From positions 434,001 to 498,000 of the forward strand of contig NZ_JAGSYB010000001.1 of the NCBI RefSeq assembly GCF_025685415.1: a stretch of 64,000 nucleotides of DNA, in the 5' to 3' direction. Position 1 is the stretch's first letter; each line of letters begins with the position of its first letter. The position numbers and the translations under genes are program-made. This stretch comes from Terriglobus aquaticus (GTDB taxonomy: Bacteria; Acidobacteriota; Terriglobia; Terriglobales; Acidobacteriaceae). The notes below the pieces were generated by a model, which worked only from the letters and a program-made list of their open reading frames with translations, made no database searches and was not told the DNA's origin. Below, in pieces: positions 11,011 to 47,538 of this stretch.

Positions 11011-12672
11011 TCAGATCTCCAGGATGACAGGCATGATCATCGGCCGACGACCGGTGCTCTTCTGGATCTGCCGCTTCAGGTCCGACCGTACCTTTTCCTT
11101 AATCAGCATCCAGTCGCGCCGCTCCTCAATCGAGCTCGACTCGATCGTATGCGCAATCGTCTGCCGCAGCTCGGTCGCCATGGCTTGTTCATTCACCGCA
11201 AAGCCGCGTGTCACAATCTCTGGCGCGCCTTGCTGTCGTCCGGTCATCTTGTCGATGGTGATGATCGCCAGGACCAGGCCGCCCTCACTCAGGTGCTTGC
11301 GGTCGCGGATGATCATCTCTTCCACGGCCTCAGTCGCCGATCCCGAATCGATCAACACACGTCCGGTTGCCACCTTGCCCGTCTTGCTCATGCTGCCGGC
11401 GGTCAGCTCGATGACTTCGCCGTCTTCCACCAGCATCGCCTGCTGAGGAATCCCGGTGCCCACCGCCACTTCCACGTGCTGCGTCAGATGCCGGTAGTCG
11501 CCGTGCACGGGAATGAAGTACTTCGGGCGCAAGAGGTTGATCATCAGCCGCAGCTCTTCCTGCGATGCGTGTCCGCTCACGTGAATCAGGCCGGACCGGC
11601 CGTCGTCGTGAATCACGCGCGCTTTGCGGCGGTACAGGTGATCGATCACGTTGTAAATCGGCTTCTCATTGCCCGGGATCACACGCGATGAGAACACCAC
11701 GGTGTCACCCGCTTCAATGCGCGCATGCTTGTGGTTGTCCACCGCGGCCCGGCTCAGCGCGCTCATCGGCTCGCCCTGCGTTCCGCTGATCAGCACACAC
11801 ACCTTCTCCGGCGGCATGTCTTTCAACTGTCCGCTATGAATCAGCAGGCCGGGCGGCGGGTCGATATAGCCCAGATCCTGCGCAATCTCCGTAGCGTTGT
11901 CCATGGAGCGGCCGATCAGCGCGACCTTGCGGCCATGCTTGTGCGCCAGGTCCATGGCCAGCTTGATCCGGTGGATCGAAGACGAGAAGCACGTAAAGAA
12001 CAGCCGGCGCTCGGTCCGCGCAAAGATCTCATCCAGACGCGGCAGGACCGCCAACTCTCCCGGCGTAAAGCCAGGCCGATCCACGTTGGTGGAGTCCTGC
12101 ATCAGCAGCAGAACGCCCTCTTTGCCCAGCTCGGCGAAACTCTGCAGATCGAACGGGTGTCCGTCCGGGCTCGACAGATCAATCTTGAAGTCGCCCGTGT
12201 GCACGATGGTGCCGACCGGCGTGCGGATCGCCAGCGCCACGCAGTCCACCAGCGAATGCGTCACGCGCAGTGGCGAGACGCGGAACGGCCCAAGCTCAAA
12301 GCTCGAGCCCGGTAACATTTCGATCAGGTCGGCATCGTCCAGCAGCTTGTGCTCTTCCAGCTTGCCTTCCACCAGCGTCAGCGTGAACTCGGTGCCGTAC
12401 ACCGGCACGTTCAGCTCGCTCAGGATCCACGGCAGGCCGCCAATGTGATCCTCATGCCCGTGGGTCAACAGAATGCCGCGCACCTTCTCGCGGTTCTCTG
12501 TCAGAAAGCTGATGTCAGGCACGACGATGTTCACGCCGAGCATGTCATCCTCAGGGAACATCAGGCCGGCATCGATTACGACGATGTCGTCCTTCCATTG
12601 AACGGCCATGCAGTTCATGCCGAACTCCCCCAGGCCGCCCAGGGGTACAATCTTCAACGTTTCCAGACTCAT
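11011..12672 (-). CDS. rnj: Ribonuclease J
   Basis: Cytoplasmic metallo-beta-lactamase/beta-CASP nuclease with 5'-3' exonuclease and endonuclease activity in mRNA decay and rRNA processing. The 553-residue protein has the HxHxDH metal site at residues 71-76 (THGHEDHIGG), a downstream HTGDFKID aspartate, the beta-CASP motifs (SGHASQEEL; VHGDYRHL) and the C-terminal domain. Length matches the family. With the RNase E/G at 43.8 kb, this genome carries both main decay nucleases. The start ATG at 12672 lacks a strong ribosome site. The TMEM175-type gene is 128 nt upstream. Confidence 0.96.
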   Translation of the reverse strand: MSLETLKIVPLGGLGEFGMNCMAVQWKDDIVVIDAGLMFPEDDMLGVNIVVPDISFLTENREKVRGILLTHGHEDHIGGLPWILSELNVPVYGTEFTLTLVEGKLEEHKLLDDADLIEMLPGSSFELGPFRVSPLRVTHSLVDCVALAIRTPVGTIVHTGDFKIDLSSPDGHPFDLQSFAELGKEGVLLLMQDSTNVDRPGFTPGELAVLPRLDEIFARTERRLFFTCFSSSIHRIKLAMDLAHKHGRKVALIGRSMDNATEIAQDLGYIDPPPGLLIHSGQLKDMPPEKVCVLISGTQGEPMSALSRAAVDNHKHARIEAGDTVVFSSRVIPGNEKPIYNVIDHLYRRKARVIHDDGRSGLIHVSGHASQEELRLMINLLRPKYFIPVHGDYRHLTQHVEVAVGTGIPQQAMLVEDGEVIELTAGSMSKTGKVATGRVLIDSGSATEAVEEMIIRDRKHLSEGGLVLAIITIDKMTGRQQGAPEIVTRGFAVNEQAMATELRQTIAHTIESSSIEERRDWMLIKEKVRSDLKRQIQKSTGRRPMIMPVILEI

Positions 12673-39987: not shown

Positions 39988-42015
39988 GTGCTGCCCACCG
40001 AACAAATCCCAGCCACCATCGGTACGCGCGAAGAGAAGATCTCGCCCGTCAAGCTGGCGGCTGTTCAGTACGTCATCGCGACCATCATCCTTGTCCTGCT
40101 CGCCGGCCTCTGGCGTCTGCAGGTGCTCAATGCCAGCGACTTCCGCATGCTGGCCGAGGCCAACCGCATCCGCAAGGTTCCCATCCTTGCGCCGCGCGGC
40201 AAGCTGCTCGACCGCGAAGGCCGCCTCATCGTCGACAACTACTCGTCGGTCGCCTGCTACCTGCTCCGCGAGCAAATGCACGACGCCGATGCCGAGATCC
40301 GCATGATTGCGGACGGCCTTCACCTGACGCCCGACCAGGTGCAGGACACCATCCGCCACTACCAGTACGCCCCCAAGTACCAGCCCATCCCGCTCAAGGC
40401 CGACATCTCGCCCGACGAGCAGGCCTTCATTGAAGCGCATCGTAACGAGCTGCCCGAGCTCGAACTTCTGGAGGAACAGCGCCGGCTGTACCCGCGCCAC
40501 GGCTTCGCCGCCCATCTGATCGGCTATGTCGGCGAAATCTCGGAGCAGGACCTGAACAACCCGAAGTACGCCTTCTACGAACCGGGCGATGTGGTGGGCA
40601 AATCAGGAGTTGAGCAGGCCTACGACTCGCTCTTGCGCGGCGAAGACGGCTCCCGCGACCTGATCGTGAACAGCCATGGCCGCGAGATCGGCAAGCTGGG
40701 CGAAGAGCTCGCCAAGCCCGGTCAGGACCTGCGCCTGACCATCGATCTCGACCTGCAGACTGCCGCCGAGAAGGCGATGGAAGGCAAGAACGGCGCCCTC
40801 GTCGCCATCGATCCGCACACCGGCGAGGTGCTCGCCATGGTTTCGAGGCCGGTCTTCGATCCAAACCAGTTTGCCGTGCGCCTCACTCGCACCTACTGGA
40901 ACAGCATCCTGACGGACCCCGAGCACCCCTTGCTCAACAAAGCGATTCAGGCCCAGGTCGCGCCCGGCTCCACCTTCAAGATCATCATGAGTGTCGCCGG
41001 CCTGGAGCAGGGCATCGCTCAAACGCAACACGTCGTTTGCTCCGGCGGTGCCGAGTTTTACGGCCACTACTACCATTGTGACGCGCACCACGGGAACGTG
41101 AGCATCGACAACGCCATCCCGCAGTCGTGCGATGTGTTCTATTACGTCTTGGCCCAGCGCCTCGGCATCGACACCATCGCGCGGTACGCCACCGCGTTCG
41201 GCCTTGGGCAGAAGACCGGCATCGACCTGCCGGAAGAGGCCGCCGGCACCATGCCCAGCTCTCAGTGGAAGATGAAGAACTTCCACCAGCAGTGGTTCGC
41301 CGGCGAGACCATCTCCGTCGGCATCGGCCAGGGCGCCATCGCAGCTACGCCGCTGCAAATGGTGCGCGCTCTCAGCGGCATCGCCTCGGGTGGAGCCCTG
41401 AAACGCCCGCACATCGTCTTCCCGCAGGAGATTCCGGAGGATCAGCGATCAGCCTTCGCCGAAAGCTTTCCGGGCAGTGGCGACAAAAACGTGCCGATCC
41501 AGTCCGCCGTGTGGCAGACCGTCACGGAAGGCATGTCCGCGGTGACCACCTACGGCACCGCCGCCAGCGTGCACCTGGACGGCATCGACTTCGCCGGCAA
41601 GACCGGTACTGCCCAGGTCATGAGTCATGACGCGTCCGCGCGCAACGGCGGCGGCAAGAAGACCCAGCCGAACTCGTGGTTCGTTGGCATCTCGCCGCGT
41701 CGCAACCCGGATATCGCCGTTGCTGTCCTTTGGGAGAACGGCAACTGGGGCTGGCACGCCGGCTCAGTCGCCGCACAGGTGATCAACGCCTTCGTTGAAA
41801 AGCAGCGTTCGCACAGCAAGAACCTCCTGATCGCACAGGCGCCCGCTCCGGCTCCGGCCGCGCAGGGGAGCGACGCCGACAAGCAGGACGACGGTGGGCA
41901 GAAGAACGGAGACACCGACGGCAACAAGAACGAGAAGGAGCCAACCGCCTCCGCAGAAGCGCCTGCAGCGAAACCGGTGCATGTAAAAGCAAGTGCCGGC
42001 GGTGCAGGAACTTAG
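39988..42015 (+). CDS. mrdA: Penicillin-binding protein 2 (elongasome transpeptidase)
   Basis: 675 residues. Class B PBP that cross-links peptidoglycan in lateral wall growth with RodA. One N-terminal helix (VQYVIATIILVLLAGLW), the pedestal domain (APRGKLLDREGRLIVDN), then the transpeptidase with nucleophile Ser328 (GSTFK), the SxN-equivalent QSCDVFYY and K538TG (AGKTGTAQV). The SCD in place of SxN is usual for PBP2. A disordered Ala/Pro/Gly/Asp/Lys-rich tail of ~60 residues follows the domain. The start is GTG at 39988. rodA follows after an unusual 177-bp gap. Confidence 0.95.
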   Translation: MLPTEQIPATIGTREEKISPVKLAAVQYVIATIILVLLAGLWRLQVLNASDFRMLAEANRIRKVPILAPRGKLLDREGRLIVDNYSSVACYLLREQMHDADAEIRMIADGLHLTPDQVQDTIRHYQYAPKYQPIPLKADISPDEQAFIEAHRNELPELELLEEQRRLYPRHGFAAHLIGYVGEISEQDLNNPKYAFYEPGDVVGKSGVEQAYDSLLRGEDGSRDLIVNSHGREIGKLGEELAKPGQDLRLTIDLDLQTAAEKAMEGKNGALVAIDPHTGEVLAMVSRPVFDPNQFAVRLTRTYWNSILTDPEHPLLNKAIQAQVAPGSTFKIIMSVAGLEQGIAQTQHVVCSGGAEFYGHYYHCDAHHGNVSIDNAIPQSCDVFYYVLAQRLGIDTIARYATAFGLGQKTGIDLPEEAAGTMPSSQWKMKNFHQQWFAGETISVGIGQGAIAATPLQMVRALSGIASGGALKRPHIVFPQEIPEDQRSAFAESFPGSGDKNVPIQSAVWQTVTEGMSAVTTYGTAASVHLDGIDFAGKTGTAQVMSHDASARNGGGKKTQPNSWFVGISPRRNPDIAVAVLWENGNWGWHAGSVAAQVINAFVEKQRSHSKNLLIAQAPAPAPAAQGSDADKQDDGGQKNGDTDGNKNEKEPTASAEAPAAKPVHVKASAGGAGT

Positions 42016-42192: not shown

Positions 42193-43293
42193 ATGTTCCG
42201 CTTCTCCAGCTTTCGCGATTTCGATTGGGCGCTTCTCGGCATGGTTCTGCTCATGTCGGCCATCAGTGTTCTCGAAATCTACTCCGCGACACTTCACACG
42301 AAGTTCCACGGCTTTCACACGAAGCAAATCGGCTTCCTGCTTGCCGGCTTGGTCGTGATGTTCGTCGTCTCGCAGATCGACTACCACAAGCTCATCGACA
42401 TCTCGCCATGGGCTTACGGCATCAGCATCGTCTCGCTGCTGGCAGTGCTCGTGGTCGGGCAAAAGGTTCTGGGTGCGCGGCGCTGGATCAAGCTCCCCGG
42501 TGGCATCCACTTTCAACCTTCGGAATGGGTCAAACTCGTCCTGATCCTCGCGATGGCCCGGTACTTATGGGGTCTGGTCGGTCGAGAACTCGACTGGCGC
42601 GAGATTGGTAAAGCCTTTGCGCTCATCGGTGTGCCGATGCTGCTCGTTCTAAAGCAGCCCGACCTAGGAACTTCGCTTACCTATGTTCCTGTCCTGGTCG
42701 TGGGATTGTTTCTTGGCGGGATCCACTGGCGTCGCGCGCTGATCATCGTGGTCACGTTCGCCGTGTTGATCACCGGGATTTGGAAGAGCGGAAAGATCCT
42801 GAAGCCCTACCAAAAAGCACGCTTGACCAGCTTCCGCCACCCGGAAGACGACCCAAAAGGCACCGGCTACCAGGTGCGTCAATCCCTTATCGCCGTCGGC
42901 TCAGGAGGCGTGTGGGGCAAAGGCGCGACCAAGGGCACGCAGACGCAGGGTGATTTCCTGCCCATCCCCTACACCGACTTCATCTTTGCCGCGCTGTGCG
43001 AAGAGCACGGCTTCGTTGGAGCGGCCCTCGTTCTGCTGCTCTACCTATTTATTCTGCTCCGCCTGATCCAGAACGCGCAGACCGCAGCGGATCCGCCAGG
43101 GACCTTCCTGATCATGGGAGTCACAGCGGTGCTCATCTTCCAGATCGCGGTCAACGTAGGCATGGTGGTCGGACTGATGCCGGTAACGGGCATCCCTTTG
43201 CCGCTGCTCAGTTATGGTGGTTCCAGCGTCATCTTTTCCTTCTTTGCGCTCGGGATGGTGATGAACGTCCGTATGCGACGGTTTGTGAACTAG
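42193..43293 (+). CDS. rodA: Peptidoglycan glycosyltransferase RodA
   Basis: 366 residues, ten transmembrane helices, SEDS family. Polymerises lipid II in the elongasome with PBP2. Characteristic parts are GARRWIKLPGGIHFQPSEWVK, KQPDLGTSLTYVPV, GTGYQVRQSLIAVGSGG, LPIPYTDFIFAALCEEHGF and the end GLMPVTGIPLPLLSYGGSS. Length and motifs are normal. It follows mrdA and precedes the RNase E/G gene, an order seen in other phyla after mreBCD. Confidence 0.96.
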   Translation: MFRFSSFRDFDWALLGMVLLMSAISVLEIYSATLHTKFHGFHTKQIGFLLAGLVVMFVVSQIDYHKLIDISPWAYGISIVSLLAVLVVGQKVLGARRWIKLPGGIHFQPSEWVKLVLILAMARYLWGLVGRELDWREIGKAFALIGVPMLLVLKQPDLGTSLTYVPVLVVGLFLGGIHWRRALIIVVTFAVLITGIWKSGKILKPYQKARLTSFRHPEDDPKGTGYQVRQSLIAVGSGGVWGKGATKGTQTQGDFLPIPYTDFIFAALCEEHGFVGAALVLLLYLFILLRLIQNAQTAADPPGTFLIMGVTAVLIFQIAVNVGMVVGLMPVTGIPLPLLSYGGSSVIFSFFALGMVMNVRMRRFVN

Positions 43294-43818
43294 TCAAAAC
43301 GTTGAAGGCGGTGCAGGGACCTGTCCGCAAACGCTGGCGCGAAATCATTTCCTGTTGCACAATGAACGCAGCGAAGTTGTACCTGTACCGCCGAGGAGCG
43401 GCGGGACGCCGGGCGAACTGTCCGGCAACCAACGAGTTTTGAAGTTTTTTGCACCAACGAACAAGCCGCCGGGCAGAGGGCAACAGTCCACCGGGGCCGA
43501 TGCAGAACAATGAAGCGGTGCTCGCGGATGGCGAACGTTCCCGCCCGGCCTTTTGGCCCGGTTCGTGTGAACACAAGTCCTGCAAGGGCCCGCGTAAGTT
43601 AGAGGTTTGTATTTGGCAAGACCACCGCAGATGCGAAGCAACCATCCTGGCCGTTCCCCAATGGCCGGGCTGCCTTGCGTGCGCCTGCGGTTTTGGCGTG
43701 AGCGCATGAGCGTTCCTGCCGGTGTTGCCGTGCATTCTGTCTGCGCCAGCCTTCACGGGTAGCAGCACGCGCTGCGGACCACGGCTCTCTCTCCGCGTGG
43801 CGGAAAGAGCAAACAGAA
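43294..43818 (+). other. Long gap before the RNase E/G gene, possible structured leader
   Basis: 525 bp without a supportable gene. GC-rich and with several short inverted repeats, for instance GGCC boxes around 43650-43665 and CCGGCC/GGCCCGG around 43548-43564. I looked for conserved blocks of RNase P RNA, tmRNA and 6S RNA and saw none. In enterobacteria the rne leader is long and lets RNase E control its own mRNA; a similar role here is only an inference. Confidence 0.4.
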
Positions 43819-46800
43819 GTGTCCAAAGAAATCTATATCTCCACAACGCCGCATGAGACGCGCCTAGCGATTGTCGAAGACGAGCAGCTTTCGGAGATCT
43901 ATTACGAACGCGAGAACGAGTACACGCTCGCGGGATCCATTTACAACGGCAAAGTGACACGCGTGCTGCCTGGCATGCAGTCCTCCTTTGTGGACATCGG
44001 CCTGGAGCGCGACGCGTTCCTGTATGTGACCGACTTCATGGAGGAACAGGGCGACGCTGCCGACTTTGAGTCGGAGAACGGCGGCAGCCGCCGTGGCCAG
44101 CCGCGTGAAGCAGGCAGTCGCGATGAGGGTCGCCGCGAAGAGGGCCGTCGCGAAGAAGGCAGCCGTGGTGCGCGTGATCGTGGCCGCCGTGGTCGCCGGG
44201 ACGCGACCGAGCCAACGCAGGAGACCACGAGCTTTGATGAGCCGATTGCGCCCGCTCCGGTGGACGAGTCGGCGAACTATGACAACCAGGCGGCGCTGGA
44301 CGAGCAGGGAAGCCGCCGCTGGCGCGGACGTCGCGGGCGGCGCCGTGGTCGTGGTGGCCGTGAAGGTGGCAGCAGCGACGCCTCGACCGGAGGTTTCCCG
44401 GAGCAGGGCGACGTGCGGTCCGATCTGAGTGGCGAGACGATCGTGCTGGAAGGATCGTCGGACGATGAGGTTGAGTTCGACTCAGGCGTTAGCGCTGACG
44501 GAACGATCACGATCGATCTGGAAGGAGCTGCGGAGCCCGAGAACCTGGGGCGGCGCAACGTGCACCGGCCCGGCCGCGTTGGCCGGCCAGGCAGCGACGA
44601 GCGCGCTGCGCGCCAGAACCAGCCGGAGGAGCGAGAGCCGCGTCAGCGCGATGATCGTGGTCGCGATCGCCGCAGCTTTGGGTCGCGTGACCGGGAAGAG
44701 GATTTCGTGCCCGCGGGTGCGGCCGTCACGACTCTGCCGGGCGAGTCGATTCGCAAGTATCGCGATCCGGCCGAAGTGGCGGCCGAAGATGCCGCGCGTC
44801 AGGCTGCTGCGCCGCGTGCCCCCGAGCCCTTGGTTGCAGCGCAACCATCCATCGAGATCGTGGGTTGGAATGGTGGAGCCACCCTTCCAGGTGAGTCGAT
44901 CTCGCGCTATCAGCGGTCTGAACGCTCCAGCAGGTCAAAGTCAGTAGCCGCGGCACCTTCGACGATGGACCAGGCGGAAGATGCGCCGGCGGAGACGCCG
45001 GAGGTTGTTGCCGCAGCTCCGGAAAGCTCCGAAGATGCTCTGGAGATGGCCGCGCCCACGACCGCTGGTAGCGCCGAGGTCGTGACGGAAGAGGTTGCAC
45101 CCAGCCCGATTCCCGACCAGCAGAGCGATGTTGCCGCAGCGGCAGCACCGGATGAGACTGGCGGTCTGACGCAGCACCCGGCCCACGCAGACGAAAGCGC
45201 GGCAGTCAGCCCCCAAGTTGTGGACAATGCTCACGCCGCCGTAGAGGCTGCGGAAGAGAACGCCCCGGTGCCCGATGCCGGTGAGTATGAGCCGGCTGAA
45301 GGAACAGCCGCGCGGCTGAGCGAGACCGATCGTCGCGATCTGCGGCGCCGTACGCGGCGTTCTGAGGCTGTGGCCGCGGAGACGGGCGCCGACAGCGCCA
45401 GCGGCGAGCCAACTGCGGAAGATGTATCCGCGGACACCCACACCGTTTCCGGTGAGGAGCATGAAACGAGGGTGGAGGAATCGGCAGGCCTGATCAGCCT
45501 GTTCGGATCCGCCGGTGTACCCGGCCCGGTGGACCACACGATCACACAAGAGTCCGAAGCTCCCACTGCTTCCGAAGCTGCTGTGGACCAAGAGGTGGTG
45601 ACTGCGCCGGAACTGGAGTCCGCTGCAGGCTCTGCAACTGCGACCGAGATTGGACCGGAACAGGATGCTGAAATCGTCAGCGGGGAGGCCGCCGAGCCGG
45701 CAGCGCACGAGTTCACCAGCATCCAGCCGGACGGCGTGATGCTCACTGAGCCGCTGCAGGACAAGGCCGACGCTGAGCCAGAGCAACAGGAAGAACTGGC
45801 AACGCCGTTCGACGCTCACGCCTATGACGAGACAGAACTGAGCGTGGCGGAGCTGTCCGGTGCCGAGCCCGTGCCCCAGGTTCATGCGTATGGGGAAGGC
45901 GACTTTCACGAAGAGGAGCTGGACGGCGACGAGTACGAGTTCGATACGGCGTTCGCTGCCATTGAAGAGGACGACTTCGACGAGTACGAAGAAGAAACTC
46001 TGGATGAGGCTACGGAGCAGCATGCTGACGGGCTGGACCAGCACGGGGACGAGCGGTCGCTGCTGAGCGGAGACGAGGACGAAGACGAGTTAGAAGCCTC
46101 GCCGGATACGGGCGGCTTTACGGTAGACGACTTCGGCGGCGAGCCGGACGAGGATGCTGCCGAGGAGACGACCGGGAGCGCGCCGGCACAGGGCGGAGAG
46201 CGTCGCGGACGCCGCGACAACCGTCGTGGTGGACGCGATCGCGACCGGGGCGTGCGTGGCGAGCGGCCGTTCCGTGGTGGAGCAGGCGCAGACCGTGGCC
46301 GCGGCCGCAGCCGCCAGAGCGTGCAGACCATGGACCTGCCCGCGATCACGGATCTGCTAAAGCCGGGGCAGGAAGTTCTGGTGCAGATTGCGAAGGAGCC
46401 GATCGCCAAGAAGGGCGCGCGGATCACGTCGCATATCGCCTTGCCAGGGCGCTTCCTGGTGTTTATGCCAACGGTGAACCACACCGGCGTTTCCCGGAAG
46501 ATTTCGTCGGATGAAGAGCGCCGGCGCTTGAAGTCGATCCTGTTGTCGGAGAAGGGCGAGCACCAGGGCGGGTTCATCGTGCGGACGGCCGCAGAGGGTG
46601 CGACCGAGGAGGAGCTTCGCAACGATCTGCGCTTCCTGATCCAGCTTTGGCAGGACATCAAGATGCGTTCGGAGACGTCGAAGTCGCCGGCGCTGATCTA
46701 TCACGATCTGGGCCTGATTGAGCGCATCCTGCGCGACCAGGTAACGGACAACTTCTCGGCGATCTGGGTCGATTCCGAGCAGGAGTATGAGCGCGTGCTG

Positions 46801-47538
46801 CGTTTCCTGCAGCGCTTCCAGCCTTCGCTGGTGCGCCGCGTGAAGCTCTACACGAAGGAAACTCCGCTGTTTGAGCACTTCGGCATTACGCAGGAGATCG
46901 ATCGTGCGCTGAAGAGCAAGGTCTGGCTGAAATCCGGGGGATCGATCGTGATCAACCAGACGGAAGCTCTGGTAGCAATCGACATCAACACAGGCAAGTA
47001 CGTCGGCAAGACGGCTCGCCTGGAAGACACCATTCTGAAGACGAACCTGGATGCGATTCCGGAAATCGTGCGGCAGATTCGGCTGCGCGACCTGGGCGGC
47101 ATCATCGTCATCGACTTCATCGACATGGACGAGCGCAAGAATCGCGCCAAGGTGATGCAGGCACTGGAGGACGAACTGAAGACGGATCGCGCTCCTTCGA
47201 AGGTGCTGCCGTTCAACGACTTTGGCCTGGTCATCATGACGCGCAAGCGCGTAAAGCAGAGCCTGGAGCGCACGTTGTGTATTCCAGACCCGGTCACGGA
47301 AGGCACCGGCATGATCAAGTCGCCGGTTACCGTGGCGAACGAGATCTATGTGGAGGTTCGCAAGATGTACCGCCACATCGAAAAACCGGACATGATGCTG
47401 CGTGTCCACCCGGAAGTGGTGAAGCAGTTGAAGCAGAATGGTGCTCGTCGCTTGCAGGAGCTGGAAGAGATGACACACAAGACGATCCTGCTGAAGAGCG
47501 ATCCATCCCTGAGCCCGGAGCAGTTCGACATCCACTAG
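43819..47538 (+). CDS. Ribonuclease E/G with giant insertion in the S1 domain
   Basis: 1239 residues. Residues 1-75 are the start of the RNase E/G fold and the first half of its S1 domain (IYISTTPHETRLAIVED; GSIYNGKVTRVLPGMQSSFVDIGL). Residues ~76-840 are low complexity: Arg/Gly-rich, Ala/Glu-rich and acidic blocks. The fold resumes at ITDLLKPGQEVLVQIAKEP, with the 5'-sensor Arg922-Thr923, catalytic Asp1055 (VAIDIN) and Asp1099 (IVIDFIDMD). Their spacings equal those of E. coli RNase E (169, 303, 346) within one residue. The zinc-link CPxC is DPVT (1157-1160). The C-terminal small domain is short. The start is GTG at 43819. Confidence 0.93.
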   Translation: MSKEIYISTTPHETRLAIVEDEQLSEIYYERENEYTLAGSIYNGKVTRVLPGMQSSFVDIGLERDAFLYVTDFMEEQGDAADFESENGGSRRGQPREAGSRDEGRREEGRREEGSRGARDRGRRGRRDATEPTQETTSFDEPIAPAPVDESANYDNQAALDEQGSRRWRGRRGRRRGRGGREGGSSDASTGGFPEQGDVRSDLSGETIVLEGSSDDEVEFDSGVSADGTITIDLEGAAEPENLGRRNVHRPGRVGRPGSDERAARQNQPEEREPRQRDDRGRDRRSFGSRDREEDFVPAGAAVTTLPGESIRKYRDPAEVAAEDAARQAAAPRAPEPLVAAQPSIEIVGWNGGATLPGESISRYQRSERSSRSKSVAAAPSTMDQAEDAPAETPEVVAAAPESSEDALEMAAPTTAGSAEVVTEEVAPSPIPDQQSDVAAAAAPDETGGLTQHPAHADESAAVSPQVVDNAHAAVEAAEENAPVPDAGEYEPAEGTAARLSETDRRDLRRRTRRSEAVAAETGADSASGEPTAEDVSADTHTVSGEEHETRVEESAGLISLFGSAGVPGPVDHTITQESEAPTASEAAVDQEVVTAPELESAAGSATATEIGPEQDAEIVSGEAAEPAAHEFTSIQPDGVMLTEPLQDKADAEPEQQEELATPFDAHAYDETELSVAELSGAEPVPQVHAYGEGDFHEEELDGDEYEFDTAFAAIEEDDFDEYEEETLDEATEQHADGLDQHGDERSLLSGDEDEDELEASPDTGGFTVDDFGGEPDEDAAEETTGSAPAQGGERRGRRDNRRGGRDRDRGVRGERPFRGGAGADRGRGRSRQSVQTMDLPAITDLLKPGQEVLVQIAKEPIAKKGARITSHIALPGRFLVFMPTVNHTGVSRKISSDEERRRLKSILLSEKGEHQGGFIVRTAAEGATEEELRNDLRFLIQLWQDIKMRSETSKSPALIYHDLGLIERILRDQVTDNFSAIWVDSEQEYERVLRFLQRFQPSLVRRVKLYTKETPLFEHFGITQEIDRALKSKVWLKSGGSIVINQTEALVAIDINTGKYVGKTARLEDTILKTNLDAIPEIVRQIRLRDLGGIIVIDFIDMDERKNRAKVMQALEDELKTDRAPSKVLPFNDFGLVIMTRKRVKQSLERTLCIPDPVTEGTGMIKSPVTVANEIYVEVRKMYRHIEKPDMMLRVHPEVVKQLKQNGARRLQELEEMTHKTILLKSDPSLSPEQFDIH

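Follow-up and report, generated by a model that had tools for sequence, protein, structure and literature searches.

A candidate degradosome-like scaffold within the S1 loop of an RNase G-like enzyme from Terriglobus aquaticus

The window analysed here, a stretch of 64,000 nucleotides from Terriglobus aquaticus (Acidobacteriota; contig NZ_JAGSYB010000001.1 of assembly GCF_025685415.1, positions 434,001 to 498,000), encodes on its plus strand an RNase E/G family protein of 1239 amino acids (open reading frame 43819-47538, opening with GTG; all coordinates are those of the window), whose S1 domain is interrupted by a disordered insert of 761 residues (residues 77-837; 44047-46329; bounds from alignment to orthologs). 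We lean, with some reserve, towards viewing this protein as an RNase G-like enzyme that carries a degradosome-like scaffold in its S1 loop, with LPGES motifs predicted to dock a partner. Related enzymes bear their docking platform on a tail; in this one it has probably been relocated to the interior. An earlier note, made from the sequence of the window alone, had described an insert of ~765 residues at 44047..46340, close to what we measure, and had argued that a scaffold, if any, must lie in the middle of an RNA-binding domain. The conserved short motifs of the insert and the absence of a tail-bearing paralog from the insert-bearing genomes compared fit this idea and thereby strengthen the case for an S1-internal scaffold.

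Membership in the RNase E/G family is indicated by TIGR00757 (464.8 bits; cut-off 325.95) and by PF10150 on residues 875-1145 (346.6; cut-off 25.5). The best NCBIfam score, 477.6 bits, is obtained with the RNase G model PRK11712, whose match is split by the insert; because this value lies below the curated cut-off of 594, we call the protein RNase G-like only. Scores against the RNase E equivalog models likewise stay below their cut-offs (PRK10811, 255.1 of 908 bits; cyanobacterial, 270.8 of 900; mycobacterial, 266.1 of 1400). A phmmer search of the PDB returned two matches to E. coli RNase E (2vrt), one aligning residues 6-76 with 6-76, the other residues 840-1172 with 87-419, the latter starting where the protein had been said to resume (near residue 840). 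Since the S1 domain of E. coli RNase E comprises residues 36-118 (PMC4245959) and the match splits at 76/87, the break falls inside S1. The segment before it (residues 1-76; 43819-44046) contains N-terminal RNase H-like strands and the first S1 half; the suggestion that the first ~75 residues form the start of S1 thus applies from about residue 39 onwards and fails for residues 1 to ~38, which are RNase H-like. The segment after it (residues 838-1239; 46330-47535) comprises the second half of S1, the 5'-sensor, the DNase I-like catalytic domain and the small domain. D1055 and D1099, both in the catalytic domain, align with D303 and D346 of E. coli RNase E, its catalytic aspartates, and R922 and T923 with R169 and T170, its 5'-sensor arginine and threonine; judged by this alignment, catalytic and 5'-sensor residues are retained. 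The protein stops where RNase G does, with residues 837-1238 matching positions 87-486 of 489 in PRK11712 and, as had been noted before, no C-terminal extension or tail past the small domain. A whole-protein search of the 4.16-Mb genome of T. aquaticus identified this gene (hereafter rne) as the sole match; the two matches counted in genome G000 by the family and paralog searches are taken to be the two halves of this gene.

A conserved short motif in a disordered region is a trait of degradosome scaffolds, and the insert displays it. Among the 83 loci with both insert flanks readable and an insert above 60 residues (the remaining loci being cut, partial or short-looped), every one of the 76 inserts of 300 residues or more contained LPGE[ST], as against none of the seven shorter ones (138-294 residues); after shuffling, on average 0.21 and never more than 2 of the 76 inserts contained it. 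The stricter pattern LPGE[ST][LI].[KR][YFH] was found in 75 of the 76, the exception (locus L026) reading LPGEALQKY. At least two LPGE copies occur in 54 long inserts and a single one in 22; in 52 of the 54 multi-copy proteins, the first two copies are separated by 43-64 residues, with spacings of 14 and 104 residues in the other two. The usual form of the first copy is P[FI][VI]LPGESLSKY, that of the second WDG[GS]..LPGESLSRH. In the window, two LPGES copies lie 50 residues apart, as LPGESIRKY (residues 306-314; 44734-44760) and as WNGG...LPGESISRY (residues 350-364; 44866-44910). At the DNA level, a degenerate pattern encoding the motif matched the T. aquaticus genome twice, both times within rne, and gave 87 matches in 54 of 60 family genomes, compared with two for the reversed-pattern control; by hand comparison with the family matches, 75 of the 87 fall in rne, nine lie elsewhere and three were left unassigned. 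A comparison of the LPGES region with solved structures yielded a best match at E = 1, to an unrelated protein, and no Pfam domain was detected within the insert at E values up to 1.

The insert is a clade-wide feature. A match to the enzyme was found in 97 of 100 family genomes, and the same S1-insert architecture recurs in isolates and metagenome-assembled genomes of Edaphobacter, Granulicella, Bryocella, Terriglobus and others, so that the guess that relatives might carry similar insertions is borne out by 76 orthologs with inserts of 328-803 residues; inserts of 138-294 residues were measured in the other seven of the 83 proteins. The orthologs, too, lack a tail after the small domain. Of 110 initial loci, 106 had a readable frame; L095, L097, L098 and L105 were unreadable, L095 being read later (insert of 38 residues). 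In a tree of 117 cores, selected from 140 usable rows by thinning family near-duplicates and built by a quick search with midpoint rooting, insert length increases stepwise across clades, from 12-84 residues in short-loop Acidobacteriota to 138-294 residues in an 11-row clade and 328-803 residues in a 62-row clade (Shimodaira-Hasegawa-like approximate likelihood-ratio support 99). LPGE[ST] follows this division: in the 62-row clade it occurs in all 57 rows that could be read (five could not), and in the clade with 138-294 residues in none of the 11. Other phyla were sampled through eight complete loci outside the acidobacterial rows, with inserts of 11-50 residues. At 761 residues, the window insert is near the maximum without being extreme: locus L045, labelled Granulicella, has an insert of 803 residues in a protein of 1281. 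As a side observation, the contigs of L095 and L099 are labelled Acidimicrobiia and Rhodanobacteraceae, although their genes nest within the acidobacterial tree, and likely represent mislabelled bins.

These comparisons bear on two further explanations. An assembly or frame artefact, which the earlier note had named as something that close relatives might reveal, is ruled out by the recurrence of the architecture in many independent genomes, both isolates and metagenome-assembled ones, by the single open frame, by the coding-like G+C content at the three codon positions and by ratios of nonsynonymous to synonymous substitution rates (dN/dS) below 1; we give it practically no chance. In all seven ortholog pairs examined, dN/dS amounted to 0.11-0.33 for the insert and 0.006-0.078 for the core, with the synonymous rate being high in several pairs. 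The insert is, by this measure, translated and constrained while evolving fast, under purifying selection. The alternative that the growth of a disordered loop was merely tolerated and has little function would account for the wide range of lengths (328-803 residues) and for the fast divergence, with only 267 of 608 aligned positions identical between the window insert and that of its genus relative L002. However, it is at odds with a dN/dS below 0.35 in seven of seven pairs and with a motif shared by all 76 long inserts, and we consider it most improbable.

The distribution of a second, RNase E-type gene is consistent with a relocation of the scaffold into S1, without amounting to proof. Defined by a match to the core of locus L156 at E <= 1e-100, such a gene occurs in 77 of 297 genomes of the phylum. 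All seven paralogs sampled (L146, L147 and L152-L156) belong to the same family and phylum as the window protein and show the reverse layout, combining an S1 loop of 4-13 residues with a tail of ~257-316 residues past the core; three of them form a separate clade in the tree, from which a score filter had excluded the other four. Among the 116 genomes listed with an RNase G-type match, for which both the match spans and the set of 77 paralog-bearing genomes were compiled by hand, the paralog was absent from all 35 with spans of 490 residues or more and from all 16 with spans of 445-489 residues, and present in 26 of the 65 with spans below 445 residues. It was also found in none of the 33 genomes of T. 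aquaticus' own class.

In composition, the insert conforms to the earlier description of a disordered region with alternating charged blocks. Disorder-promoting residues (A, E, G, K, P, Q, R, S and D) make up 77% of it, with 76 arginines, three lysines and no cysteine, and 65 of 72 fifty-residue windows of the insert fall on the disordered side of a charge-hydropathy plot, compared with 8 of 36 for the core. Arginine is concentrated at residues 165-179 and 791-837, the latter being an Arg/Gly-rich block directly before S1 resumes (46189-46329; 34% arginine; net charge of +0.21 per residue), preceded by a strongly acidic stretch at residues 691-790 (-0.41 per residue). In the average of the 76 long inserts, the first four tenths carry a net charge of -0.08 to -0.01 per residue, after which the value drops to -0.26 and, in the last tenth, turns to +0.09; the charge profile is therefore a property of the clade. 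The first Arg-rich stretch, SRRWRGRRGRRRGRG (44311-44355), is conserved in a 54-sequence alignment and represents a candidate RNA-binding segment; the pattern R[RW].{0,1}RGRR recurs in 61 of the 76 long inserts (mean of 0.09 after shuffling). Other islands are less regular. Residues 492-511 (45292-45351) align with ASASR.DP..PS.FR of the relatives and have diverged here, GEGDFHEEE (residues 692-700; 45892-45918) is a degenerate form, lacking the F.PG part, of an island that 43 of the 76 long inserts carry as [FY].PG.G..EEE, and an acidic EEETL island (residues 723-730; 45985-46008) corresponds to EEET[LI] in 41 of 76 (shuffle mean 0.45). A membrane-binding segment, another suggestion of the earlier note, found no support: a scan of the insert with an approximate scale identified no candidate for a positively charged amphipathic membrane helix. 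Alternatively, the insert could tether RNA and form condensates without relying on any particular protein partner, its Arg-rich blocks holding RNA and its alternating charge driving clustering. The two Arg-rich blocks and the acidic block are in line with such a role, for which C. crescentus RNase E can also be cited (PMC12691583), but bulk charge needs no conserved motif of 8-9 residues at near-constant spacing, and this explanation appears improbable to us.

AlphaFold2 models were obtained for the window protein and for the shorter ortholog L073. In the former, the insert shows no secondary structure and mean predicted local distance difference test (pLDDT) values of 31-48 per block. In the latter, the strands N-terminal to the insert pack with post-insert residues (to ~590) in an RNase H-like fold, and the sole insert stretch of at least ten residues outside the listed segments with pLDDT below 50 is 193-205, PIVLPGESLAKYR, with a pLDDT of ~51 at the LPGES motif, which lends weak support to the motif. 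These models bear on a rival in which the insert serves as an intramolecular regulator, with LPGES and neighbouring segments folding onto the S1/5'-sensor channel, or onto another subunit of the tetramer, to gate RNA entry. Such a role would agree with the near-confinement of the motif to rne, with its being, in the L073 model, the longest part of the insert to stay clear of pLDDT values below 50, and with the S1 insert of Caulobacter RNase E, part of which is helical in the RNA site (PMC4245959). However, confident docking is seen in neither model, given the low pLDDT values at the L073 motif and throughout the window insert, and proteins with inserts of 138-294 residues keep the core without the motif. 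We regard this rival as unlikely.

Returning to the S1-internal scaffold, we envisage that the LPGES sites would dock an RNA-decay partner (PNPase, RNase J, a helicase or another protein), that the Arg-rich blocks may bind RNA beside the S1 channel and that the alternating charge could promote clustering or condensation. The S1 loop would then stand in for the C-terminal scaffold of E. coli RNase E, positioned where RNA enters. More tentatively, and as a possibility that we would not expect to hold in full, the acidobacterial clade to which this family belongs may possess a separate kind of degradosome, in which, in place of a tailed RNase E, an RNase G-like enzyme with an S1-internal scaffold uses a dedicated LPGES(L/I)x(K/R)Y motif, paired in this family, to dock an undescribed partner by the RNA channel. 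Several observations weigh against a scaffold of this kind. Nine of the 87 motif-pattern matches lie outside rne, and six of the 60 family genomes have no match. For the motif and its flanks (24 codons; two pairs within the window's genus), dN/dS is 0.24 and 0.31, only modestly lower than the 0.28 and 0.33 of the insert, and binding to its own enzyme could equally explain the constraint on the motif. Of the 76 long inserts, only 43, 41 and 39 contain the F.PG..EEE, EEETL and PS.FR islands, respectively. Both AlphaFold2 models render the S1 barrel poorly (predicted template modelling score of 0.33), and the S1 halves, although sequence matches lie on both sides of the insert, are not convincingly joined in either. 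Finally, the exclusion of the RNase E-type paralog is phylogenetically clustered, clades being no independent data, and the paralog is also missing from 39 of the 65 short-loop genomes; the insert is therefore not a necessary replacement.

Among known systems, the closest in kind are S1 inserts, and what is new here is the size, the phylum, the motif series and the lack of a tail. S1 inserts of ~50-150 residues are found in alphaproteobacteria and plants (PMC4245959); compared with the alphaproteobacterial ones, the window insert is a much larger variant. The RNase E of Caulobacter crescentus contains such an insert, located in its RhlB-binding fragment (PDB 4OXP; PMC4245959), and, as in the window protein, it is charged and predicted to be disordered. 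Yet the Caulobacter enzyme also has a C-terminal scaffold, whereas the window protein combines its 761-residue insert with no tail, and the accessible part of PMC4245959 shows no LPGES motif series for the Caulobacter insert. The scaffold of E. coli RNase E resembles the window insert in being disordered and charge-patterned with short conserved microdomains; it differs in lying C-terminally, over more than 500 residues (PMC4435900), and, in contrast to it, no membrane-helix candidate was found in the window insert. In a survey from 2011, the Fibrobacteres/Acidobacteria group appears with an RNase E/G of 511 residues and without degradosome potential (PMC3071783). This entry does not match the present clade, whose proteins reach 1281 residues and contain a conserved series of motifs. 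A search of open-access literature turned up no paper describing an S1 insert in Acidobacteriota. A 2015 study by Ait-Bara and Carpousis reportedly classified RNase E homologs and may mention S1 inserts. RNase G (CafA) is close to the window protein by the best NCBIfam score, a matching C-terminal end and cell-shape gene neighbours, but the E. coli enzyme is not known to have such an S1 loop (model length 489). Should the loop recruit partners, a single enzyme family would have evolved scaffolds at different positions, in a C-terminal tail and in an S1 loop, and the LPGES motif would provide a short, testable bait.

The window protein has also diverged at the Zn-link. The CPxCxGxG motif of the E. 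coli-type Zn-linked tetramer is replaced by CIPDPVTEGTG (residues 1154-1164; 47278-47310), in which both CxxC cysteines are absent. CxxC is present in 98 of 102 readable orthologs; within the genus, it is kept in seven of 18 genomes with a match and gone in 11, including the window's subclade, so that its loss must have happened within the genus. Mutation or deletion of CPxCxGxG was reported to prevent tetramer formation and to reduce activity (PMC2631609). The loss of the cysteines suggests a zinc-free interface or an altered assembly, and offers a natural test of tetramer cohesion without zinc.

Upstream of rne, on the same strand, lie an mrdA-like gene (encoding PBP2; 39988-42015) and, directly adjacent, a rodA-like gene (42193-43293). 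A rodA match was found at most 1.2 kb upstream in 56 of the 59 loci with at least 1500 nucleotides of upstream sequence, at ~1.3 kb in two and not in L090, and an mrdA match upstream in 49 of the 56 loci with at least 3300 nucleotides. In E. coli, the RNase G gene likewise lies beside cell-shape genes. The rodA-rne gap (43294-43818; 525 nucleotides) may provide a long leader for autoregulation; a search of 43200-44000 for an element of the RNase E 5'-untranslated-region type gave no Rfam match at E values up to 1. PNPase and RNase J are encoded in the T. aquaticus genome, in which RNase Y had no match, so that the RNase E/G protein is likely a main mRNA endonuclease. The RNase J homolog (11023-12657, minus strand; TIGR00649, 563.9 bits) is located ~31 kb from rne. 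An ETIxLEG string common to the window insert and the PNPase tail was absent from the other orthologs scanned and is taken as chance. The PNPase of L143 has a low-complexity tail of ~119 residues, acidic and then RRRRRRGGRRGG, whose charges oppose those in some parts of the RNase insert, so that the two could co-assemble.
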